From the NCBI GenBank assembly GCA_001692895.1, contig KV748232.1, positions 372,001 to 436,000 on the forward strand: 64,000 bases of DNA, read 5' to 3'. A program made the translations under genes and the position numbers. Position 1 is the stretch's first letter. Every line of letters starts with the position of its first letter. This document shows, one piece after another, positions 18,949 to 51,361 of this stretch. The notes under the pieces were generated by a model. It made no database searches and was not told the origin of the DNA. It saw nothing but the letters and a program-made list of their open reading frames with translations. The stretch comes from Cenococcum geophilum 1.58 (taxonomy: Eukaryota; Ascomycota; Dothideomycetes; Gloniales; Gloniaceae).

Positions 18949-19165
18949 TGTAACGGGACTAGCCTAGTTACAGTAGGAATGTCTCGGTGAAACACTCGAC
19001 AGATAAATTCCGACGCTTTAACCGAATTCTGCTAGATTAATTAAATTCTACCAAAGTCCGTTAAAGACCGCGTGCGTATATACGCACGCATCGACCACTA
19101 AGCCTCTAACTATTTAATTATATAATTCTCTTATTATTCCTTTCTCTTCTTTATATAATATCTTA
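18949..19165 (+). repeat. 5' LTR of element C, first part
   Basis: Starts TGTAACGGGACTAGCC. It aligns with 59810-59863 plus 63783-63945 of the 3' LTR. It is interrupted by S after 19165; the LTR resumes at 20189. Confidence 0.9.
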
Positions 19166-20174
19166 GGCCGTCGAAAACGGACTCTGCACCTATACGTGGT
19201 GACGGCTACGAACCTAGGTCTTCGAAGTTCAGACTCAGAGCCAACGCAAAGACGTCGCACAGCGTGCGATACAACTTCGTGGTGGTGGTTGCGAGCGTTG
19301 TGGGCGGTAGTAAAAAGTTTTCACATAGGATGGTGAGATCTCGAAAACCACCACTAATGGTACCCCTTTACGATAACAGCTACTTCTACACTGCTCTATT
19401 AGGGCACCTATACGATCCAATATAGATACGCAGTATTTAATAACATCCCCCGACCCCCAATTAAAAGCATTAACAACCTTATATTAATAAACGGCGACCG
19501 TAAACAAATAAATAAACGAGTAAATATACGGCCCCTTCTAACCCCTAGGGCGATCGCCCGCGGAGCATACGGTTACTTACCGTTAACTACTAAATACCTA
19601 GCAGCCTGGATTGCAACCCATGGTTCTCCTTGTCTCCTTTTAGGGAGTAGTAACCCTTAAAAAGGGCCTAGCTAGGGCCTAGGTATAAAAGATACCCAAA
19701 ACACAATATATCCCGCTGTTAGTATTATAGTAGTTACAGATAAATCCCCCTTACGCCTTTAATGGCTCTAGGGGGGGGGAGGTAAGGCGTATATAGTAAT
19801 AGTCTACAGGAGATAGCATATAGGGGATAGTTAAGATATGGAATATAAAGCACACAGCAATTAATTAGCAAGGCCTAGCTAGGACATAGTAAACCCTAGC
19901 TTTAAATAAGCTAGAGGAGGAAGCAGTAGTTCCTATGGAGTTTAAACATTTAAGGAGGATAGGACGTAGCTATAGGCCTATAGGGCCGCTGCTACGGACA
20001 AACATAGCAAATTAGGGGTTTTTCATCCTACTAAGGTGGCTTATAGGGTTTTTCCGTCCCCTACACAGCAGGGTTTTCTTCCTGTCAATTTACAAGTTTT
20101 CCCCCCTGCGACGGTAAGTGTCTACGTGGGCCTAGATAGGATCCGTATTAGACGTTAATTAAAGAACTTAATAA
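19166..20174 (+). mobile_element. S element copy 1: 1-kb SINE-like repeat
   Basis: 1009 bp starting GGCCGTCGAAA and ending near GACGTTAATTAAAGA plus a short A/T-rich tail. It is flanked by a 14-bp direct repeat (tatataatatctta, 19152-19165 and 20175-20188). A second copy lies in reverse at 50227-51245 with the same start. The matching unoccupied site is at 63932-63945 (tacgcaacgtcttg, the pre-RIP form). The long and variable target duplication, fixed 5' end and variable 3' tail fit target-primed reverse transcription, so a SINE or non-autonomous LINE. No protein motif is seen; a GTTCAGATCC-like box near the 5' end of copy 2 could be a pol III B box, which is weak evidence. Confidence 0.75.
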
Positions 20175-20188
20175 TATATAATATCTTA

Positions 20189-20338
20189 TTCTTAGCGAGA
20201 ACTATATACCCTTAGATTTAGATAGAATTTATATTATTCCTTTAAATCTTCCCTAAAGTCTCTCCGTGCCCTTATATTATATTATATTAATACTAATACC
20301 CTTAAAATAATAAATAAACTTAAATCCGCTATAATAAT
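20189..20338 (+). repeat. 5' LTR of element C, second part
   Basis: Continues the LTR (ttcttagcgagaactatata..., also at 63946-63998) up to taaatccgctataata. There the LINE insertion begins; the LTR picks up again at about 31771. Confidence 0.75.
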
Positions 20339-20349
20339 AATAATAATAT

Positions 20350-23300
20350 TCAATTACGCTGTTGCGGTTCCCATTAGGGTCCATATAGCGGGTCTATATA
20401 GGTGTATTATTGACCCGAGGTACGAGTGGTCTATATTTTCGGGTCCTGGATTTCAAACCCTTACCAAGCCGGCTTTTAATTGGTCTAAAAAAAAACCGCG
20501 GGCGGTATCTACCTGCAGAATACACGTGACGAACATTAAAATATTTAAGATCTCACTATTAACAAATCAACCTTTTTGTTGACATCTCTATTAATACTAC
20601 TATACGCGTCTTAACTATGGTAGAACCTGCTCTAATTAAGTGCAGCAAGTGCTGTTTAATACAACCCCATATTAATTTTATTAAAAACGGCCCATCTACT
20701 AAGCTTTTAAAGTAATGTCAATTGTGTCGGTTAAAGGCGCGTTTTCCCTATATATTTCTTCTACTTTTACTTACTTTCCTAGGGCTCTAAATATAATTTA
20801 AATAGGCGGAAAGCAGAGCTTGGTTCTACTAAGACTCGTCCTACAAAGCGCCAGCGAAATGCTTTACCTAAAACCGATACTAAGGACGTCTTTTTACCTT
20901 GCGGCCAGAACAGTTAAGATACCCCTAAAATAGCTTAACGGCGGAAGACAATTAGGGCAATATAACGGGAGCACCGCATTCTTAATCGGCGGGGTAAAGC
21001 TCACTCGCCTACTCCTCCGCTATATACTATAGATGAAGCTCCGTGCAGCAGAAGAAGCACCCCAGATGGCCCAAATACGTCCTTGCCAGAACTAGCTCCT
21101 ATGCCTACTCTACCGCTAATACCTACCCTACCACCAATACCACCTTTCTCGCGGCAAGCTCCGACTACGGCTACATTACTACCCATTTCGGCTATTAATT
21201 GGGAGCGAATTAAGAAGTTTAGGAGTATACTATAGGCTAAATGTATAGAGACGTGCAGTTATTACAAGGAGCGGTAGTTCTAAATAGGCCTAGCTACGGA
21301 GGGTGATAATATAGGTATATGCAAAGCCTGCATTAAGGACGCCGATAGCCTTAAATATCTAACCCTTTTTCCCCTGTTTGGTAAAAGCAACGGGCTCAAT
21401 CCGGGGCCTATTCCTAGCTTCCTACCTATACTTACCGCGGTGGAGGAGCTTCTAATTACGCGCGTATACGTTTATCTACAAGTCGTGCGTGTACGCGGCT
21501 AGTAACATTGCTATACTAGCCATATCTGCTGCTTTGGCCAGAACATACTAAAGACTTAGAGGCAGCTACTACGGCTACCTACTAAACTCGATATACTAGT
21601 CGTGAGGCCTATAGCAGTAGAGGGTAGCAAATACCTAGGTCGGCGGTTTACCAAGCGGTATACTATAAGGCGCTCTGCTATAGCACAGTGGCTTTACTTT
21701 CTAAAGGCCAATTATCCTAATTATCGCGACGTTGAAATATATAGCACTCGGCTTACTAGCTTACCCGAAAATAGCTCTATATTAGATCAGCTACCTTATA
21801 TTAATAAGTTAGAGTCTAATTCTAGTGGCCCAACGGCTTACCCTACTACTCCTATGCAACGTCCTTCTGCTATTAATCCTCTGCCTACCGAGCTTAGCAG
21901 TAATATACTAGACGGTGAATTTAATAACAATGTACTAGATACTTTAGTTCCTGATTTAATACCTAACCTTAATGAATTGGAGCTTTTAGGTCGTGAGGTT
22001 TAACACTAATAAGACCTATAAGCGGGCCTAGAGGTTCCCACTATACAACAGACACCTCTTTCTGAGCAATCAGCTAGCTTTATTATGCGCAACACCTTTC
22101 CTACTCTGTTTCCTTATAGCAAAGCCGATTTTAATATGCCACGAAGCCATATAGTTACCCTGGCTGCGTACGCCAAGTATATGCTTAAGTATTAGGACGG
22201 TCGGTTTGGCCGCCACCCCTTATTTCGCTACTACGTGTTTAATCGGATTATGAGAGAGCAAGCCCTTAACGCCACCCGCTTCCTTTACGGCCGATTAAAT
22301 AAGAATAGTCTATCTTTAAATAAGCTTAGTAATCTTATAAATGGTAATAGGGGTAACTAGTTGCTAAATAAGATTGTACGGCATGTACGGAACTTTAAGG
22401 GCACTAGACCTTACTAAAGGCAGAAGAGAAATAAGCTTACGGCTTATACTAAGAATATTAAGAGCGGGTCTCTATTCTTTACACTTAGCACTGCTAATCT
22501 ATATTAGCATGATCTATACTCTTATATACCTCTATTTAACGAATATAAGGCTGCTAATAAGGCTTAGCGCTACCGGATTACTTCTTAAAATCTTAACGAT
22601 AATCCGTATATTACTGCTTATTGGCTATATCGCCGCTTTAATCTGTTTAGGAAGCACGTACTTATAGGCCTATTTAATGGCACTGACTTTTAGTCTTAAT
22701 ATAAGTGGTAGGTATAAGGTAGCGGCTATATATATAGCTTCTTATAGAGTTTAACAGCCCTAAGGCCAGATCCGTCAGCTAGTGACTTAAGGGCGGCTTT
22801 TGCTAAGTACTGGGCTACTTTTATATCCATAATCAATCCTAATTAATCTAGGCCTCCTGATCTCTAATATCCTTCTACTCTTAGCTATAAAGAACAGCTT
22901 AATACTAGTGAGCTTCTTACTACCTGCCTTAATTGATTTTAACGGCACCGTAATTACACCGAATCTTACTGCTTAAGATTAAAGAAAGGCTCCACTGGAG
23001 TAAAGGAGTGCCGCTTCTATTTTCCACGCTTTCTCCGCAATAAGGCCGCTATATTAAAGGATTAAAATCCACATCACTGGACGTTCTGTCCGCAGCGTAA
23101 TAATAAGCTTCTTAATGGTTACAATGCAGCTATAATATTAGCGTGGATGGCGAATATTAATACGTCACCTGCTATAAGCATATTAGTAATAGTTAACTAT
23201 ATAGGCAAATATTGTAGTAAGAAAGAGAAGAAGTTAACTTCCTACTAGAAGTTACTCTAATTAGTATAGCCGCACGCTAATAGCCTTTATGCCTTTAGTT

Positions 23301-25830
23301 TAGTTATAGCTAGGTTTATAAACAAGCTTATTACTAAACGCGATTGGTTAGCGCAGGAGGTATACCATCTACTTTTTAACATTCCCCTTTACAAAGGCTC
23401 TAGGAATATAGTAACTTTAAACTACCGCTAGAAGGACGATTAAAGCGCTACGTATAAGCTTAATAATAGGCAACTAAGAGGGTGCGGACTGTCTAACTAT
23501 AAGAAATATAAGCGCCGCCCAGATAGGGTAGAGGATATTACTTTCCTTAATTTTCTACTCTATTTTAATTACTCTACTTATAAGCGTTAGCTAAGAGCAA
23601 GGCCTTAAGTTATATTATACTTTCCGCGATATAACGGCGATTGTTCCTATCCGCAGTATTCTAAGTTCTGCCGTATAAAGCTTATTCTTTATTACCCATA
23701 AAGGGAGTATAAGGAAGTGGCTACTTATACTAATAGATTCGGGGCCCCTAATTATATGGCTTCCTATTAGGCTTGCGTTAACTCTTATTAGCACCTACCT
23801 AACTACTTCTGTAATTGGAAACTAGAGGAAGGCCGCGAAACTGCTAATAATATTAATAAGTTTGATAGCGGTTTTGCAAACGACTTAGAGCTATACTAGT
23901 CCTTTAAGGCCCTGCATGCCCGCGTTCAAAATACTAATGGAGTTAAAATTAAGGATCCTAACAGGCTTAGTAATAGGGAGCTTAATTATAACTACGACTG
24001 GAGTATATATCGGGGTACGTACCCGCAGCTTAATAAGAGGACTTATTGGCAGAAAGCACGGCTACAGTCTCTACTATGGAGCCGCCTATCCTAAATAGCA
24101 ACTCCGTCCTCCTTATAACTAGGTTAGCGTCATATCTATAATGTTATAGTTAATCACTATAGGCAGATCTAAGTGGGCCTTAGCCCCCCCCTACTGCGGA
24201 TTAACGTTAATGGAGAGGTAGGAACCGGCAAATTATATCTTATTACTGTCCTCTCTACTACGCTCTGTAATATGGCAAGGGCTAATAGCAAGCCAATGCT
24301 ATTAGCTCGAGCGGCCCCTACTAGGGTAGCTGCCTTTAATATTAACGGCAGAACTATATATAATCTATTAAGGTTGCTAGTAAATCGCCCGTTTAAGAAA
24401 TTGCCTACTACTAGTCTTACGCCTTTATAGCAAGCTTTTAAGGATATTCACTATCTCGTCCTTAACGAGAAATCTATAATCGGGCAAGTATATCTAGCTT
24501 AGATCGATCGCCGCCTCTATTAGATCTACCCTATATATAACAACGACTACTTCGGAGGCTTAAACATCTTGCTAGTAGGCGATTTCCATTAGCTTCCCCC
24601 TGTAGGTTAGGCGGCCTTATACAGCAATCTACCCGCTAGGCCATCAGAGTTCGCTAGCTATAAAAAGGGAGCCTATAAGGCGATTGACCGAACAGCTGTC
24701 CTAGATTAAGTTATGCGGTAGGGCGGTGATAACGCTAAGAGCTCTGTATTTAGGACAGCCCTTATAGAGCTACGTAGTGATTCTATAAGTAATTCGACCT
24801 AGAAGCTTCTTTTAACTAGGTATAAGCAGGGCCTATCCACCGATAAGGTTGCGAGCTTTAATAACGCAATTCGGCTATATGGCACGCGCGCTACTATAGG
24901 TAAGTATAACACTATTCGGCTTCGCGACCTTTTACAGCCAGTGGTGGTTATTAAGTTAGTTGACACTAGTGTAGGTACGCGGAAAGTTACTCCTAATTAG
25001 TGCAATACTATAGAGAATCTAGCCCTATATATTAGCGCGAAAGTAATGCTAATATAGAATATCTGGGTTGAACTGGGCTTAGTAAACGGTACTACTAGTA
25101 TAGTTAAAGATGTTATATGGAAGGGACACACGGATATTAAAAAGGATTAGCCTCAGTTACTACTAATTACGGTAGATAGGTATAACGGACCTACCCTATT
25201 TACTCGGCAGAATAGTAAAAAAGTCGTCCCTATATTTTCTATACTTTATAAGTGGGAGGGTATAAGAGGCTCTTGCTTACAGCGTTAATTTCTAATTACT
25301 CTAGCTTTTGCTCTTACTATATATAAAAGCTAGGGCCTAACACTTAACTAGGTAGTTCTAGATATTAAGGAAAAGAATAAGACAGCCGGGCTAATCTATG
25401 TAGCAATCTTACGAGTTAAGAAGCTTTTAGGGCTTATATTTAAACGTAGGTTTAATATAAAACGATTTTAGTCATCTATAAGTAAGACTAAAGAGGTATA
25501 ATAAGAAGATTTTGTATGGAGGCAGCAGCAACTACTTATAAACGACTTTTCCTAAATAGGAAATTATATACTGGCTCAGAGGTAAGCGGAGAATGCGGCA
25601 TTCGTCTTAGTTTCCTAATTTTTGAATAGCTTAACCGCGAAATCCAATTTTCTAAATTTCAACCCCCCTATCCGTCCTACCTTCTTACCGCTTCTGGAGC
25701 TGTTAGATATATATATAATGGTATACAGGGAGAATTAGCAGTCTTACCGGATTAATATTGCTGCTGTCTATAGTGTTAATCGATTTTTGGAATTTTTTAA
25801 GTTTTTTTTAAAGGGCGGAAATATCGCTTA
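20350..25830 (+). mobile_element. Helitron, autonomous type, decayed (ends approximate)
   Basis: Rolling-circle transposon identified by its Rep-helicase protein at 20617-25560. Helitrons insert between A and T without target duplication, begin TC and end CTRR after a hairpin. I could not place those ends with confidence, so the borders are set by the LINE tail on the left and the LTR-like sequence on the right. Confidence 0.6.
20617..25560 (+). pseudogene. Helitron Rep/helicase protein, broken by stops
   Basis: Long plus-strand frame interrupted by scattered TAG/TAA. The N-terminus has Cys pairs (CSKCC...CQLC, 20641-20730), then a Pro-rich part (about 21000-21190) and an exchange-type N-domain with CKACIKDADSL (about 21.32 kb) and NGLNPGPIPSF. 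It continues through a clean 133-codon piece at 21602-22003 containing AIAQWLYFLKANYPNYRDVEI. The Helitron-like N region starts about 22140 (PRSHIVTLAAYAKYML), and a Rep-type YIGKYCSKKEKK string, with the likely catalytic Tyr, is near 23.2 kb. The Pif1-like helicase has Walker A GEVGTGKLYL (about 24213-24242), a LNEKSIIG Walker B remnant (24460-24485) and LVGDFH.LPPVG (about 24571-24606). The C-terminus ends near INDFS. Role: nick, unwind and roll-circle copy the element. Less damaged than the Gypsy copies nearby. Confidence 0.88.
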
Positions 25831-25834
25831 TATA

Positions 25835-26041
25835 AGGAGTCACGTAACCTCCGAGAATACATGCTACTTGGGACCGCATATTAGCAGCCACGACTTCTTT
25901 ACCCTATAGTTAAGATTTTATATATACCGCACCTAGAGCTACTTATAATAACTGTTACCTATAGATCTGCCGATTTATAAATTAAAAATTAGACGTGGTT
26001 AGAGCTGTTAGTAAGGGTTATCAATCGCACTCCCCGTGACA
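25835..26041 (+). repeat. Possible 5' LTR of a Copia element
   Basis: Shares blocks with 27424-27628 in the same order and direction (gattttata..., gagcta/tgcttataata, agatctgccg, end ctccccgtgaca versus ctcccaggaca), and is followed 117 bases later by a Copia gag start. Similarity is patchy and the 5' border is guessed. Confidence 0.4.
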
Positions 26042-26157
26042 AAATTTTGGATTTTAGTAATCCAAACTAATGAATTAAATTAACGTCCAAATAAGGTTCT
26101 GCTAAGACGCTAGCTAGACCCTAACCTAAACCCTTCCTAACCTATTAAATTCTAAAA

Positions 26158-26596
26158 ATGATAACCCTTACCGAATTAAAAATCAACCTTATCCTTAACA
26201 AGCCATCTAATTAGATTTAATAGTTCTTTATTATCTAAAACATAGCTAAAACTAATGAGGTATAGTAGTATATCGACCCATCTAAGAAGAAAGACGATCT
26301 TCCAAATCTTCTAAAGCTAGAACTACTAAGTCGGCCTACACCAAGGGATATACTACCTACGGCTACATTAATAGCAAAGCTAGACCCAAACCAGCTCACT
26401 ACCTATAACTAGCTTTACGCCAAATACAAGGACGATCTACGCGTATACTAGAAGCAAAAACAGGCCATAAACAATATCAACAACTATATCATTTGCACCA
26501 TATCGGTAGCCTACCTTCCACTTATCGACAGCCTTAGTAGTCGGTTACATCAAATATTTAAGGCGTCTCTACCACTGCAGTAGCCACTACAGTGAC
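26158..26596 (+). pseudogene. Ty1/Copia gag N-terminal fragment
   Basis: Starts with ATG and reads MITLTELKINLILNKPSN, then FFII.NIAKTNEV..YIDPSKKKDDLP, a Pro/Thr stretch (RPTPRDILPTATLI) and YAKYKDDLRVY.KQKQAINNI followed by YIICTISVAYLPLI. This is the start of fungal Copia Gag (DUF4219/UBN2-like: a W-x-x-W-type start and a region of about 100 residues before the helical core). Stops are TAG, mostly where Gln or Trp is expected. It breaks off at about 26590 and runs into tandem repeats, so the rest of the element, including all of pol, is missing. It is the only Copia-type coding sequence seen in the window. Confidence 0.7.
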
Positions 26597-26686
26597 AGAG
26601 ATACCCTATATTTTGGTAAGCAATCAAGCCCATCTTGTACGAGAATCTCATGCTATTAGTACTTACCAAATCACGTGCTCGCAGGG

Positions 26687-27413
26687 CCTCCTCCCGTCTA
26701 TAAATACTCCTTCTATACCTTCCTCTCTTCCTTTCTTCTTCCTTACAAGAGCTGGCGGTACTCTAATACTCCTCCTTAGTCCCCACTAAGGGACCTATTA
26801 GTTAACGTGGCGATATAGACAGCATCGGACGAGGAGACGGGCGAGAGAGAAGATAGGAAGGACGGAGGAGCCTCCGGTAGGTGTCAGTCAAGCAACGTCA
26901 ATGGCTATATTATGGCTGCCTAACCTCCTGTACTTGCAGGCCTCCTCCCGTCTATAAATACTCCCTCCTTTACACCTTCCTCTCTTCTTTTCTTCTTCCT
27001 TATAAGAGCTGGAGGTGCTCTAATACTCCTCCTTAGTCCCCACTAAGGGACCTATTAGTTGACGTAGCGATATAGACAGCATCGGACGAAGAGACGGGTG
27101 AGAGAGAAGACAGGAAGGACGGAGGAGCCTCTAGTAGGTGTCAGTCGAGTAACGTTAATGGCTATATTATGGCTGCCTAATCTCCTATGCTTACAGGCCT
27201 CCTCCCATCTATAAATACTCCCTCCTTTATACCTTCCTCTCTTCTTTTCTTCTTCCTTATAAGAGCTAGAGGTGCTCTAATACTCCTTAGTCCCTACTAA
27301 GAGATCTATTGGTTAACGTGGCGATATAGATAGTATCGGATAAGGAGACGGGCGAGAGAGAAGATAGGAAGGACGGAGGAACCTCCGGTAGGTGTTAGTT
27401 GAGCAATATTAAT
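26687..27413 (+). repeat. Tandem repeat, about 255-bp unit, nearly three copies
   Basis: Copies begin at 26687, 26941 and 27198 with cctcctcccgtctataaata. Periods are 254 and 257 bp, and the last copy is partial. Each unit holds a TATA-like tataaata, a pyrimidine-rich tract, a short inverted stretch (ccttagtccccactaagg) and a purine-rich tract. Units differ mainly by transitions. No coding sequence; it could be a repeated LTR or 5' leader. Confidence 0.85.
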
Positions 27414-27423
27414 AGCTGGTTTT

Positions 27424-27628
27424 TGTCACCCAAAAATTGCGTTACGTAACAATATTTGGGAACGCAAATATATACCCTGTCCCATACTTATACCACTACT
27501 AAATATTCTAGATTTTATACTCGGAGCTGCTTATAATAGGCATTCCTAAAAGATCTGCCGGTTTAAAGCTCTACAATTAAACGTTGTTAACGTTTTATAT
27601 AGGGGTCGTTAATTAAGCTCCCAGGACA
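27424..27628 (+). repeat. Possible 3' LTR of the Copia element
   Basis: 205 bp with ends TGTCACCC...CCAGGACA, partly similar to 25835-26041. Read as the partner LTR of a Copia element with most of its interior replaced by tandem repeats. The pairing is tentative. Confidence 0.4.
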
Positions 27629-27731
27629 CGATTTTTAAAGTTTAACACTATACCAATATTACGACCTTCTTGCAGTGGCCGAGCTACCCCCAATCTCCTC
27701 CCCTTCCTCTTCTCCCTCCCATTACTCAGCG

Positions 27732-27788
27732 CCAAGCTATTGTGTCGTCGCTAAGCTATTGTGTCGTCGCTAAGCTATTGTGTCGTCG
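27732..27788. repeat. Minisatellite, 19 bp x 3
   Basis: Three head-to-tail copies of ctaagctattgtgtcgtcg; the first has cc in place of ct. Confidence 0.95.
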
Positions 27789-28547
27789 TACGTCCGAACT
27801 GGGTGGGCAATAACGTGGTTAATAGTTATTAGGCATTAAAAATATTTAGTATATAAAGCTTTAAATTGGAATTATAATCTACTATATTATATCCTACGTA
27901 GAGGGCTCTGTATTAAAGCTCTGCAGTCTAAATATGTGCTATATTCGTGACCAATATATTCTTTAGGCCCGGCTTAAGTAGGGCGCCTCGGTTACTGCAG
28001 TAGATCCTTACCTAGCAGTAACCAAGGCGCCTTAATCTTACTACTACTTCTAAATTAAGCAAAAGCTCTATATAGGGGGGTCCCAGGGGGTCTCCCCCTG
28101 GAAAACCTCATCTCTATATATATTAATTAAAGTTTATATAATAAAGCTCTAAATTAAAGCTTTGGGTTAACTAATTAGCTTATTACACTCGGGTTAAAAT
28201 TTGCGTTGGGGGACCAACGTTCCGCATGTTATATATAAGAGGGGAACCGTACAGAGCCGGGTAAAACCTCTCCTTCTTCTATTACGTGGCCTATATGGCC
28301 TCTCTTCTAATTAGTAACTACTAAGCATAAGTAAACGTCTCCTTAAGGCGCTATAGAAAAGCCATCTTAATGCGTACTCCTAGGTCCGTCTAGTGGGTGT
28401 ATAGCTAGGCCTAGGTTCGGTGTCCTAGGGTTAGTCCCGTGGTATATTCCTAGTTGCTCCCGTTATCTAGGTAGGGCGTAGGCCAGCGGCCCGCAAGGCT
28501 AGTGGTGTCGAAAGTTTATAGTAGGGAGGTAGATATTTTGCTATATT
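27789..28547. other. Non-coding stretch, probably LINE 3' region or unidentified relic
   Basis: No protein motif on either strand. It contains a 16-bp hairpin (27982-28031), a short C/G palindrome (tcccaggggg...ccccctgg, about 28081-28101), and repeated aaagctct/agagctt words, which also occur in the hAT element at 60.1-60.4 kb. Confidence 0.5.
27982..28031. repeat. Strong hairpin
   Basis: Arms ggcgcctcggttactg (27982-27997) and cagtaaccaaggcgcc (28016-28031) pair with one mismatch around an 18-base loop. It could be the terminal hairpin of a rolling-circle element, a terminator-like fold or part of a foldback unit; no CTRR end could be assigned. Confidence 0.8.
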
Positions 28548-28830
28548 CTGCCGTATTCTACTAAGTTCTACCGTATTCTACTAATTTCTACTAACAGGTA
28601 GGTGGAATATAGTAGAGGTTAAGGTGGTCCTATTATATTCTACTAAATTCTACTAAATTCTGCTAAATTCTGTTAACGGGGTAGGTAGAATACAGTGGAA
28701 TACGGTGGAATACGGTAGAGGTAGAATACGGTGGAGGTGGAATACGGTAGAGGTAGAATACGGTAGAGGTGGAAAACGGTAGAGGTGGAAAACGGTAGGG
28801 GTGGAAAGCGGTGGAGGTTGGTAGAGTCAA
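28548..28830 (-). repeat. Short-period degenerate repeat downstream of LINE ORF2
   Basis: Many copies of words such as ggtagaggtggaatacggt, and in the left half their complement-like forms (attctaccgtattctacta). It lies directly 3' of the LINE ORF on the minus strand, so it is part of its 3' untranslated region. Similar words occur in the LTRs of element D. Confidence 0.7.
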
Positions 28831-28849
28831 GGCGGTAGGGACGGGTGGG

Positions 28850-30145
28850 CATTAGGATTAGGCTCCTCTATAGTCCTCTTCCTCCTCTTAACGCGCTTCT
28901 TAGCCTCCTCCCTTTACCCTAGCCAGCTCTCTAGCTGGTAAGAGGTATAGTAGGAGGTTTATCTATATAAACCAGTCCGTAACTACCTTAGCAGCCTTAG
29001 GCTTAGTTAGGAGTTCTTTATATATAGACATTCTGGCACAGTAATATATTTCTACTTGGCTAGCGGCGTGTCTAGGGCAGAATACCACTACATGCATTGT
29101 TAATTGTTAATTATAGCCGCATAGGCAGGCCGGTGTTAGGTACCCTAGTACTTTTCGGTAGTAGAGGTATCTATTAAGCCCTATATACTTAGTTCTAAGT
29201 AGTATATTAATTATACTCTCTACCTTAGTAAGCTTTATGTGGCGTTTAAAGGCCTTCTTATTCTATAGCTCGGCCTAGGCCGTTATACGGTAAGTAAGTA
29301 TGCTCTAGTACTTTTCCTACTCCCTTTTCCACCGCTCTTTGAACGCCTCTTATACCTTAGCCCTTCTACTCTTCCTATACTGCGCTTTAGATAGGTCCGC
29401 CAACCGCTTATCTATCCCTAAGATAGCGGCCGCTATCCTCTTAAGCTTATCCCGTCTGGTGGGCCGCATTAGTAGCTTTATTCTAGGCTGGAGCTAGTAG
29501 GCTATTATAGCCCGTATAGTGTTGTACTCCCTTTTAATATGCTCTCTTACCGGCCCCTCCCGCGTCCTCTCTGCATAGGCTATAGCTAGCTCCTCTAGGT
29601 GTATCTAAAGCGGCGGGAACCCCGTCTCGTGCTCTAGTACTACTATTAGCGTTAATTTATACGCCCCCGCAACAGTACAAAGGCATAGGTTCTGTGCTAC
29701 GTCCAGCTAGCGCAGCTTAGCTTTACTTATCTCCTTAGGCTTTGTCCACTCTGGCAATAAGTACCAGGTGCTATATCCGTATAAGATTGCCGGCCGGACT
29801 ACAGCGGAGTATATCGTCCTCGCCTTTTAGAAGGAGGCGCCCTATATAGAGGCCGTAAGCCGGGTTAGTGCGGCCATTTGGGTAACCGTCTTCGCCTTAA
29901 CGATGTTGATATGCGGCCCCTATTTGAGCTTTGAGTCGACCTGCACCCCTAGCACGCGTAGGTTGCTAACTAGGCCCTCCGTAAAGCCGCGTATGTTAAC
30001 TGTAACCTTCATGTTGAACTTCTTATAGCTCCTTGTAAAGTGGCAGGTAGTTATATATTAGCTAGTAATACAGTAGAGTTCAACACGCCTACTTATCTAG
30101 GCCTCTACCCCAGTTTTCTGGTACCTCAGTTCTAGTCTATAAGCA
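28850..30145 (-). pseudogene. LINE ORF2: reverse transcriptase C-terminal part (Tad1-like)
   Basis: Minus-strand frame giving the end of a fungal Tad1-clade LINE RT. From about 30.13 kb it reads TGVEA.ISRRVELYCI, HFTRSYKKFNM, TVNIRGFTEG, NLRVLGVQVDSKLK, and KAKTVTQMAALTRLTAS, the typical segment after the RT palm. Then come SAVVRPAILYGYSTWYLLP and the conserved LRQLDVAQNLCLCTVAGAYK. Near the C-terminus (about 29.13-29.04 kb) is a Cys/His cluster of CxC...H...C type (CLCGY, HVVVFCPRH). It is cut at about 30150: the catalytic YxDD part, endonuclease and ORF1 are absent and GC-rich leader sequence abuts directly, an internal deletion. A few TAG/TAA stops; otherwise well preserved. Confidence 0.85.
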
Positions 30146-31075
30146 GTTAGCTGCCACCACCTAATACGGGGATTCTCACCAGTTCTTTCAGATATCTTAT
30201 AACGGGATTGGCCCGAGTACTAGTCCGCCCCCCAGCGGTCTATATAAGAGTTTCCTCCTAGAGTTGGTACGCTTTCGTACGGCTTAGGAGCCTTCCATAG
30301 CCTCTAGTTTTACGCTTCTCTTTATTGTTTCCGCCAGCGCGGGCATAAGCTGCCATTTGCAGGGGTCGCAACTCCCGTCTTACGCGCCTACTGGCGTAGT
30401 CCTATGAGGGCGTCGTGGCTGCATCCTGCAATGTAGCTAGGTATACCTTCTACGGTTAAGGCCCAGCCAAAACCTCTCCCGCCTGAGTAACTCCTGTTTG
30501 CTCCTTAAGCGTCCCTCACCAGCGTACTGCCCTAGCGAGCAGTCCTGTCTATTGGTACACCGACACGCGCATCCGTTCTCTCGAGCCACGTAGTAGTCTC
30601 TCCGGCCAGGACGTGATCCTGCCTGCCTACCAGGTGCACTAGGGGTCAGAGCCCAGCTAAGGGGTGAGGTCCTTAGAGCCAGCAGTGGCTACTACGTACT
30701 ACGCCCCGCGGGCCTTTTAGTTCCCGTTTCGCGTTACCTGTAAGAGTCTCCTTATGACAGGCCGACCGTGTCTTGCAGGAGGGGGCTATAGACCAGGTCC
30801 CGTGCCAGGCGACCTGTTCCCCCCTCTCCTACTAACCAAGCTTGTGTCCCCCCTTTTTATAAGCTGGCCTGTGTCTCTAACTATTGAGGACCTCATCCGA
30901 CTGGCCTGTGTTTCCTTAGAGCCTCCCCCATATATATACGCGTCAGGTTGCGTGCACCACGCCTATTAAGACCCTCCTGTGAGTCACCTGGTTGAACGCC
31001 ATGGGGCCGTCGAAGCTGGCCTGTGTTTCCGCTGCCTAGAGCTTTGCCCGTGTTTCCACCTCTTCGAGCCGTCTG

Positions 31076-31126
31076 GTCGCCGTCGCGTCGCCGTCGCGTC
31101 GCTGTCGCGTCGCTGTCGCGTCTGTC
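31076..31126. repeat. GTCGC minisatellite
   Basis: Units of about 11 bp (cgtcgcgtcgc/t) repeated four to five times within the GC-rich LINE leader. Confidence 0.85.
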
Positions 31127-31209
31127 GTCCAGGTCGCGCGCACCACGCCTATTAAGACCCTCTTCTGAGTCACCTGAGTGTCGAGTAGTACCAGATAGGC
31201 CCTCGTAGA

Positions 31210-31322
31210 GGGGCCTTAACGAGTTCTCTAGGCAGGGCCTTAACAAGTTCTTCGCGGTGGCCTTGGGGCCTTAACAAGTTTCGTACGAGGTGCCTGCGAC
31301 GCGTTAACCTTAACAAGTTCTT
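31210..31322. repeat. Spaced repeat ccttaacaagttc, four copies
   Basis: Near-exact copies at about 31212, 31235, 31269 and 31308, with irregular spacers of 10-26 bases. Confidence 0.8.
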
Positions 31323-31770
31323 ATAAAAAGAGGTTCCCTACGCCCTCGCCGCATCCCTTTGCGATCTCAGAGCTAGTGCAAGCCCAAGGGTGTCCTGTTG
31401 TACGCCTAGGGCGCGTCCACGTTGACTGGCTATGATAAGACCAGTTTCGGGCCTGGCTACGAGCCAGGTAGTTGTACATCGGGTGGTTTTCGTATCCCAG
31501 TTTCCCTTGATAGGCCTCCCTAGGTGGTAGAGCAGGAGCCTCAAGCGGAGGCAGTAAGGCTCCTGGTGTTGTTGAGGGCGATGCTTTGGTACGCGTCGCG
31601 GGCTCAACACCACAGAACCGCGACGACAGCGCGTTGCATGCGCTGCGACGGCTCCCTACCATCGCCTCTGCACTTAGCCATCAAAAGGAACGAATTCCTG
31701 ATGATGTTTCCACCCGCGGCGGCGTGGACGCGTGCAGTAGGGCTTCGCGGGTTTAAATCCGCTATAATAA

Positions 31771-49906: not shown

Positions 49907-50226
49907 TGTAACGGAACCTTATAGCAGGTACTACGATAGGCTCGTTATTAGGCTAGGTGTGTAGGTATTGTAAGTAAGTTAACAACGTAATAATAACTGG
50001 TAGAGTGGTTGCCTAATAGATTAACTCTAATTATATTCTAAGAATTACTATAAAGAAGGAACTATCTAGGTAGGGACTAAGGGTCCTTAAATACATAACC
50101 ATACTCCTAAGAAATCCTTCTTATATATAATGTACGTGTTGTATATATTATACGTACATTCCTCTTATATACTGTGTATACTGCGTATAATATTATATAA
50201 CTCATTTACTATTCCTTATTATATAG
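49907..50226 (-). repeat. 3' LTR of A3, first part
   Basis: Left part of the LTR, up to attccttattatatag, where S copy 2 is inserted. The rest of the LTR is at 51262-51361. Confidence 0.9.
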
Positions 50227-51245
50227 TAGTAGATCTTTAATTAACGTCTAATACGGATCCTATCTAGGCCCACTCAGACTACTCCGTACATAAGGGGAAA
50301 GTAATATTGATAGGAAAAACCCCTTGCTATTAGGGGGGAGGAAAAACCCTATAAGCCACCTTAGTAGGATAAAAACCCCCGAATTGCCATACCTACACGT
50401 AGCAGCGGCCCTACGGGCCTATAGCTACGTCCTCCTCCTTAGATGTTTTAAACTCCTTAGGAACTACTGCTTCCTTCTCTAGCTTATCTAGAGCTAGGGT
50501 TCACTACGTCCTAGCTAGGCCTTACTAATCGATTGCTATACGCTTATAGTTATATCCCGTATCTTAACTACCTCCTATATACTATCTCTTATTAACCATT
50601 ACCATATACGCCTTGCCTCCCCCCCCCTAAGGCCTATTAAAGGCGTAAGGGGGATTTATCCGTTCTACTATCCTAATACTAAAAGACGAAAGCGGGATGT
50701 GTATATATGTATATCTAGGTATCTTTTATACCTAGGCCCTAGTTACTAGGCCCTCTCTAAGGGCACCACTCCGTTAAAAGGAGATAAGGAAAACCGTACG
50801 GGGTTATCCAGCTGCCTTTTAGTAGTATTATGGTAGTACGGTAAGTGACCGCATGCTCCGCGGGCGATCGCCCTAGGGGTTAGGAGGGGCCGTATATTTA
50901 CTCATTCGTTCGCTCGCGCTTGTCTATTCGTCAATATAAGGTCGTTAATGCTTTCCATTAGGGTTTTTGGGGATGTTATTAAAAACTACTTATCCATGTT
51001 GGATCGTATAGGTGCCCTAGATAGAACAGTGTAGTAGTAGTCGTCGTATTGTAGAGGGCCAATAGTAGTGGTTTTCAAGATCTCACCATCCGAAAATTTT
51101 TCACCACCGCCCTTAACGCCCATAACCACCACTAGGTCCTGTCCGCACGCTATGCGACGTTTCTGCGTTGGCTCTGGATCTGAACTTCAAAGACTAGGTT
51201 TGTAGCCGTCACCACGTATAGGTGCAGAGTCCGATTTCGACGGCC
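50227..51245 (-). mobile_element. S element copy 2: 1-kb SINE-like repeat
   Basis: 1019 bp, reverse of copy 1 (19166-20174). On the minus strand it starts GGCCGTCGAAA at 51245 and ends near GACGTTAATTAAAGA at about 50233, with a short tail. It is flanked by a 16-bp direct repeat attccttattatatag (50211-50226 and 51246-51261). It differs from copy 1 by many transitions and some indels. No open frame resembles a known protein. It is GC-richer than the surrounding LTR, including a gcgatcgccc-containing stretch (about 50.86 kb) shared with copy 1 at about 19.55 kb. Confidence 0.78.
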
Positions 51246-51261
51246 ATTCCTTATTATATAG

Positions 51262-51361
51262 TTCTACTAAATCTATCCTAGACTATACCTATATTAACTA
51301 ACTAGCTTCTTTTAACTCTTCTCTAAGTAGTTATAATATTGTACTTAAAGCGTCCGTAATA
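51262..51361 (-). repeat. 3' LTR of A3, second part
   Basis: Completes the LTR after S; ends CGTCCGTAATA (from CCGTAACA) and abuts a polypurine tract read from the minus strand (ctatctccctccttttt, 51362-51378). Confidence 0.9.

Follow-up and report, generated by a model that had tools for sequence, protein, structure and literature searches.

A dispersed retroposon family of Cenococcum geophilum with a candidate HDV-like ribozyme at its first nucleotide and a LINE-related 3' end

The R2 SIDEs and R2/R1 hybrid SIDEs of Drosophila are non-autonomous elements in which a 5' ribozyme is joined to the 3' end of a LINE; in the hybrids, the R2 ribozyme is combined with the 3' end of another LINE, R1, with 14-bp duplications, as described in PMC3414825. 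The trypanosomatid elements NARTc, RIME and SIDER are short, related to LINEs, and carry an HDV-like ribozyme at their head, within the Pr77 region (PMC4035085). Retrozymes are also ribozyme-bearing non-autonomous retroelements (PMC4918200, PMC7761336), while fungal SINEs, such as those of Aspergillus fumigatus, are short, non-autonomous and flanked by target duplications (PMC5063351). Moreover, 230 variant HDV ribozymes are reported from 26 fungal species, two of them assayed and found active, with variable gene associations (PMC5640933); a word search of that text returned neither "transposon" nor "retrotransposon". Our literature search, which covered mainly openly accessible papers, revealed no fungal retroposon described as beginning with an HDV-like ribozyme, which is no proof of absence. 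In this context, we describe a family, S, which is very probably a two-module non-autonomous retroposon, composed of an HDV-like ribozyme head and a LINE C-type 3' UTR and moved by a LINE enzyme.

The DNA analysed is a stretch of 64,000 nucleotides (the window), in which CpA is strongly depleted and TpA enriched, the signature of repeat-induced point mutation (RIP), which indicates a filamentous fungus, and in which only one open reading frame of at least 120 aa occurs, at 21602-22003; the window is a RIP-degraded repeat region. About three tandem copies of a unit of some 257 bp lie at 26685-27481. The same mutational pattern is found within S: over 42 copies, C-to-T changes relative to the majority affect 720 of 1872 sites before A, with 61 of 2765 before C, 157 of 1811 before G and 162 of 2571 before T.

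An earlier note on this DNA had proposed a family of about 1 kb with two copies in the window, which was borne out by patterns in the window, by the genome search and by the duplications (Table 1). The 5' start common to both copies, GGCCGTCGAAA, has two matches in the window with none expected, and the common 3' end, GACGTTAATTAAAGA, has two exact matches; the latter, being A+T-rich, is weak alone, as 0.42 matches are expected with up to two mismatches and two were reached in 11 of 100 shuffles. The copies share their first 11 and last 15 bases and are 80% identical overall, their tails are short and one-sided (ACTTAATAA, 9 nt, in copy 1; TCTACT, 6 nt, in copy 2), and no terminal inverted or long direct repeats are present in either of them. 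The unit had been placed at 19166..20174; its start stands, while the end takes in the 9-nt tail (20166-20174), S proper ending at 20165. Similarly, the 14-bp duplication given for copy 1 was right, and that of copy 2 measures 17 rather than 16 bp, both duplications being recovered independently by a repeat finder.

A search of the 177-Mb genome (162 contigs) with the full unit gave 41 matches, drawn from the 40 best-scoring of 860 candidates, all covering at least query positions 9-993; window copy 2 is absent from these best-scoring ones. Together with that copy (42) and 38 others, from 40 loci picked out of the 80 top matches of probes covering either the first 150 or the last 100 bases of S, 80 copies were read, the 5'-incomplete L056 and L059 having been left out of this set; L077, in which S is interrupted by an insertion, was left out before duplications were counted (n=79). 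An exact target duplication of at least 10 bp flanks 73 of the 79 copies, as against 17 of 1557 mismatched flank pairs. The duplications span 11-21 bp, with 48 of the 73 at 14-15 bp, and 58 start with TA; they end exactly at nt 1 in 51 copies, one base inside in 12 and elsewhere within 3 nt in 10. Tails in the 79 copies consist mostly of TTA, CTA or ATT repeats. Among the six copies lacking a duplication, L036, L057 and L060 differ, by eye, through single RIP-like changes, L031 is a chimera, and the others are L037 and L070. The exact 5' end and long duplications first noticed in the window pair hold, in this way, for most of the 79 copies.

The copies are biased towards full length, which was found in 18 of 20 loci selected by the 3' end alone (20 of the 40 best 3'-probe matches), and the loci taken with the 5' probe comprise 19 full-length copies of 20, the other being interrupted. 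RIP-tolerant end patterns identified 537 five-prime cores and 566 three-prime ends in the genome, with no match to the reversed-pattern controls, which puts the copy number at roughly 540-570. Among the matches listed for contigs C1-C5 (89 cores and 94 ends), 64 cores have a partner end at a distance of 940-986 bp. Six of the unpaired cores were inspected; five belong to S copies of full length in which the 3' end is variant, and the sixth is not S, so the pattern counts miss variants and include a few chance matches. Pairwise identity over 42 copies has a median of 81% and reaches 99.3%, and since two copies are this close, activity of S was fairly recent.

Table 1. Features of the S copies and of unit R in the window
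Feature	Position	Strand	Remarks
S copy 1, full length, noncoding	19166..20165, 1000 bp	+	
S copy 2, full length	50234..51245, 1012 bp	-	
Copy 1, 5' target duplication	19152..19165		14 bp
Copy 1, 3' target duplication	20175..20188		14 bp, after 9-nt tail
Copy 2, 5' target duplication	51246..51262		17 bp
Copy 2, 3' target duplication	50211..50227		17 bp, after 6-nt tail
Putative HDV-like ribozyme region, copy 1, P1 to P2'	19166..19251	+	Predicted cleavage just before 19166; C.A mismatch in P2; fails strict descriptor
Putative HDV-like ribozyme region, copy 2	51161..51245	-	Strict descriptor match at nt 1, the sole one in the window on either strand
LINE C-related 3' part, copy 1	19920..20165	+	First ~28 and last ~64 nt match, middle diverged
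LINE C-related 3' part, copy 2	50234..50473	-	By consensus comparison
Terminal 3' hairpin, copy 1	20120..20153	+	GTCTA...TAGAC
Unit R, second ribozyme-headed unit (putative), ~1711 nt	30042..31752	-	Unrelated to S; fused to LINE sequence
Putative HDV-like ribozyme region of R	31668..31752	-	P1 ACCCGCG/CGCGGGT, P2 CTGCAC/GTGCAG, P3 GCG/CGC, J4/2 GCTAA
Downstream of R	20334..30041	-	Holds LINE remnants (30042-28966 by tblastn), one or more nested repeats and a 3' end of LINE type

The core of HDV ribozymes comprises a G.U or A-U pair at the cleavage site, a U and a G in L3 and the active-site C in a GCNAA-like J4/2. The first 86 nt of S fold as an HDV-like ribozyme whose predicted cleavage site lies directly before nt 1, with P1, P2, P3, P1.1 and P4 in the fixed order of a nested double pseudoknot: P1 (GGCCGUC/GACGGCU, with a G1.U wobble) is followed by J1/2, P2 (CUCUGC/GCAGAG) directly by P3 (ACC/GGU), L3 reads UGUACGU, with U first and G sixth, P1.1 is GU/AC, and the 3' part holds the P4 hairpin and J4/2 AGCCAAC. 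The G1.U wobble, the U and G of L3 and the GCNAA of J4/2 are kept in most copies, and a G.U pair in L3 is given for R2 ribozymes (PMC3774820). Pairing was counted over 70 distinct copies, ten of the 80 fragments, identical over the first 95 nt, being left out. Of the cells, 93.6% pair overall (P1 93.7%, P2 97.4%, P3 96.2%, P1.1 79.3%, P4 93.2%), as against 28.7-42.7% when the 3' partners were slid, the non-standard fifth of the P1.1 cells arising mostly through RIP-type changes. Cells changed on both sides numbered 59, versus at most 16 when slid and a mean of 22.8 when shuffled. The pairs with a double change (7) and the further pair types (24) were matched or exceeded in 70 and 71 of 500 shuffles, respectively, with no clear excess; two of the five pair measures are thus not above shuffles, and related copies inflate the others.

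The strongest point in favour of the ribozyme is the compensatory change apparent between two subfamilies. In nine of the 70 copies, P1 pair 5 is flipped from G-C to C-G (eight) or U-G (one), and P4 has another inner stem with a UUCG-like loop at the same place, the outer three pairs being shared; the predicted cleavage falls at the exact element end in both subfamilies. P4 is shortened in three copies. A strict descriptor, composed after S had been seen and applied to one copy per locus (76 rather than 79), is matched at nt 1 in 40 of 76 loci, or 50 of 76 with one P1 mismatch allowed, as against none of 66,986 other positions of S copies and one of 100,000 shuffles of the first 95 nt of one copy; the failure of the remaining 36 loci, window copy 1 included, is attributed to RIP. 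A looser descriptor gave many further matches in A+T-rich LINE loci, in repeats and in the window, which are taken for chance, the full feature set being recognised by eye only at window positions 51245 and 31752. The HDV models of Rfam returned no HDV family in six S loci (E up to 5), and a viral collection held no exact match to the S ribozyme core; most members of the class were found through structure-based searches (PMC5640933). On this evidence, the HDV-like ribozyme at nt 1 is a candidate cause of the exact 5' end of S.

At the opposite end, the likeness to a LINE 3' end, noticed earlier as a loose one, is confirmed by UTR matches and by a hairpin, and the link is stronger than first read. 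The last ~245 nt of S are related to both ends of the 3' UTR of LINE C, an APE-type element: S 950-1013 (64 nt) matches it with E 3e-12 and S 760-787 (28 nt) is colinear with its start with E 4e-4, both in a database of three loci, the middle of the module being too diverged to align. In S the terminal hairpin reads GTCTG/CAGAC, as compared with GTCCG/CGGAC in the LINE C 3' ends of L101, L107 and L108 and GCCTG/CGGGC in LINE B, and is thus kept by compensatory change between S and the LINEs; it was located in 77 of 79 S copies, with all five pairs kept in 75. The scan for this hairpin listed L101, L023, L068 and window copy 2, and missed those of L107 and L108, which were shown separately. LINE B, whose protein has RVT_1 and endonuclease domains, shows a weak sequence likeness to S at its 3' end (scores 28 and 32, versus a best of 24 in 500 shuffles). 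A "228-bp SINE" at L101:2983-3210 proved to be LINE C 3' UTR, which is present after ORF2 in L107, and its 1-228 bounds reflect the query cut. Beside LINEs B and C, with their hairpins and TTA tails, a separate family, LINE A (L091-L099, L102, L108), has poly-A ends wherever the end was seen; L102 and L108 carry such ends, L108 also two LINE C 3' ends, and no LINE end was recognised in L103, L104 and L106.

An origin of S as an internally deleted LINE, in which the ribozyme region and the 3' end would both come from one ribozyme-headed LINE, is unlikely, although the 3' end is LINE-related and such an origin is reported for R2 SIDEs (PMC3414825) and for NARTc and RIME (PMC4035085). The LINE C copy at C101:246929-252798, read outside C101:249457-251999, carries frames resembling ORF1 and ORF2, an Exo_endo_phos_2 match (4.7e-16) and, following ORF2, its 3' UTR; it is flanked by a duplication of 16 bp, right after which it starts with AACAAAAAAC. 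This one LINE C 5' end lacks an S-like ribozyme, and its similarity to the 5' end of S is not above chance (best E 0.14); no LINE source of the 5' part of S was found in this comparison. The earlier note had considered that a longer coding parent continuous with the unit would make S a deletion derivative; such a parent exists for the 3' quarter, in the form of the LINE C UTR following ORF2, and the 5' end of LINE C is unrelated. In addition, where it was looked for, the ribozyme core headed no body other than that of S, namely in 20 of 20 5'-probe loci and in five of the six unpaired cores (the sixth not being S), few LINE 5' ends being among the sequences read. Because the one LINE C 5' end read is without ribozyme, S seems to be a hybrid element and not just a LINE with its middle deleted.

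It is very improbable that the 5' fold, as a structured RNA, serves some other function, such as binding of a LINE protein or that of a promoter like Pr77, and has lost cleavage. The Pr77 region of trypanosomatids is both promoter and ribozyme (PMC8190864, PMC4748587, PMC4035085), P1 pairs are broken in some S copies, and a T.C mismatch at P1 pair 3, present in all nine copies of the smaller subfamily, speaks against the fold; one or two P1 mismatches are also reported for about a quarter of R2 elements, though these lie in the uppermost part of the stem (PMC3774820). Against a fold that does not cleave stand the core features, the G1.U wobble, the U and G of L3 and GCNAA, kept as they are in most copies, as well as the position of the predicted cut at the element end in both subfamilies.

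It is very improbable that S is an ordinary pol III SINE with a diverged head, nt 1 being the start of transcription and the fold a coincidence. The high copy number, the LINE-related 3' end, the duplications and the repeat tail are those of a SINE, and A and B boxes could be hidden by RIP; but a scan for these boxes, as proposed in the earlier note, detected neither of them within the first 150 nt, whether the consensus was taken as it is or corrected for RIP, the 64-kb window has no tRNA, no Rfam family is matched in S, and no promoter of tRNA, 7SL or 5S type was recognised; the compensatory changes in the fold and the coincidence of the predicted cleavage site with nt 1 also speak against this reading. 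The label SINE-like, given at first, therefore holds for a noncoding retroposon with duplications and a LINE-related 3' end, and not for a SINE in the strict sense. The absence of protein motifs was also upheld, the consensus having no stop-free frame above 73 aa, and only one of 116 aa at most after RIP correction, which artificially removes stops; a coding parent reading of S itself was rejected on these frames. Finally, a decayed LTR, MITE or Helitron derivative, suggested by the noncoding character and the length of about 1 kb, is in effect refuted by duplications of 11-21 bp, rather than short and fixed ones, by one-sided repeat tails, by the lack of terminal repeats in the window copies and by the LINE match of the 3' end.

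A second putative ribozyme-headed unit, R, provides an indication of how such hybrids arise. Its first 85 nt divide into HDV-like helices, with P1 GCCCGCG/CGCGGGU in three less mutated copies, L3 UCCACGU, P1.1 CC/GG and J4/2 GCUAA in four of the five copies shown, or the RIP-like GCCAA. The Rfam HDV model scores 25.9-28.4 bits (E 0.077 to 0.75) on the R copies of the window, L111 and L112, below the 50-bit cut-off, and gives no match up to E 1 on that of L110. R was rejected as a relative of S, with no similarity (best E 1.5). Among the 40 best places of R, the match begins at nt 1-2 in 35; leaving the window aside, it terminates at 1690-1718 in 30 of 39, with sequence beyond the end differing between copies. 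In all 14 junctions read, chosen among copies reaching the end, the match stops within 2 nt of the R end; eight meet known LINE sequence within the next 520 nt, six of these within 6 nt, and the other six are unplaced. The junctions fall at several different LINE positions, L118 and L125 sharing one. Three more R copies were read whole, two running into LINE A at different places and L111, with the junction of L120, being unplaced; moreover, two S copies are fused to R, one (L031) at about nt 8 of S and the other (L059, with R to 1688) near position 488. At L029:601-3214, two S copies and one R copy stand in tandem with a TATATATATCTTCA-type target between them, as if one site had been struck thrice.

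In the window, the 14-bp sequence TATAGCGGATTTAA flanks R and the LINE-type 3' end (31753-31766 and 20320-20333) and occurs nowhere else in it; because the same sequence flanks both, the "LINE 3' end" at 20359 appears to belong to a separate insertion that starts with R at 31752, and R with its downstream sequence is probably one truncated LINE insertion. On the minus strand, 20407-20933 is a repeat, mostly 83-96% identical across its 40 best places, which breaks off abruptly near 20407, a short way before the 3' end of LINE type at 20334, and is probably a nested element. Fusions such as those of R would result if the reverse transcriptase, having copied part of a LINE or of S, switched templates to the 3' end of another RNA, R then presumably existing as a discrete RNA; template jumps of R2 to U12 and tRNA are reported (PMC3414825). 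This suggests a way in which ribozyme-LINE hybrids such as S arise.

Taking S as a ribozyme-headed retroposon moved by a LINE enzyme, its cycle may be outlined as follows. The 5' module, of about 750 nt and beginning with the HDV-like ribozyme, would be transcribed as part of a longer RNA; cleavage by the ribozyme immediately ahead of nt 1 would provide all the resulting RNAs with the same 5' end. The other module, at the 3' end and about 245 nt long, would present its hairpin and three-base repeat tail to a LINE C-type reverse transcriptase, supplied by LINE C or a relative, which would nick A+T-rich targets, prime on the tail and copy the RNA up to the end made by the ribozyme; insertion would leave the duplications of 11-21 bp, mostly 14-15 bp, and the copies would later be mutated by RIP. 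We regard as possible, and rather short of probable, a wider scheme in which a pool of ribozyme-headed noncoding RNAs is captured by template jumps of LINE reverse transcriptases, S being such an R-type jump that landed on the 3' UTR of LINE C. If true, the jump would have supplied S with a 5' end of its own making together with a 3' end that can be mobilised, which would be a birth route for new SINE-like families, and the capture of ribozyme-headed RNAs would give HDV-class ribozymes a role in fungi.

The family is of interest because a candidate HDV-like ribozyme lies precisely at nt 1 of a unit dispersed in hundreds of copies, and because a second, unrelated candidate heads another repeated unit, R. 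If the S ribozyme is real, setting the 5' ends of retroposon RNAs would be a concrete role for HDV-like ribozymes of fungi; the family offers many natural ribozyme variants, and the R chimeras add a testable route of hybrid formation.

By analogy, S appears to work like the R2 SIDEs and like the NARTc and SIDER elements of trypanosomatids, having the predicted ribozyme fold at its exact 5' end and the LINE-related 3' end of a SIDE; its ribozyme sequence presumably differs from that of the R2 SIDEs. While the SIDEs lie in rRNA gene loci and are rare in Drosophila (PMC3414825), S is dispersed, with hundreds of copies and a body of ~650 nt. The 5' end of NARTc, RIME and SIDER is shared with their own LINE (PMC4035085), whereas the LINE C 5' end read here is without the S ribozyme. 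Retrozymes carry hammerhead ribozymes and form circular RNAs (PMC4918200, PMC7761336), unlike S, which has one HDV-like ribozyme per copy, so that no circle would be expected from cutting a single unit; SINEs of the Aspergillus fumigatus type have a tRNA- or 5S-related head (PMC5063351), none of which was found in S. As for the fungal variant HDV ribozymes, these typically cleave next to a C-G pair, their P4 contains an E-loop, and one additional nucleotide separates P2 from P3 (PMC5640933), whereas by inspection S has a G.U, a plain P4 and a P2 abutting P3, features which set its candidate ribozyme apart from that class.
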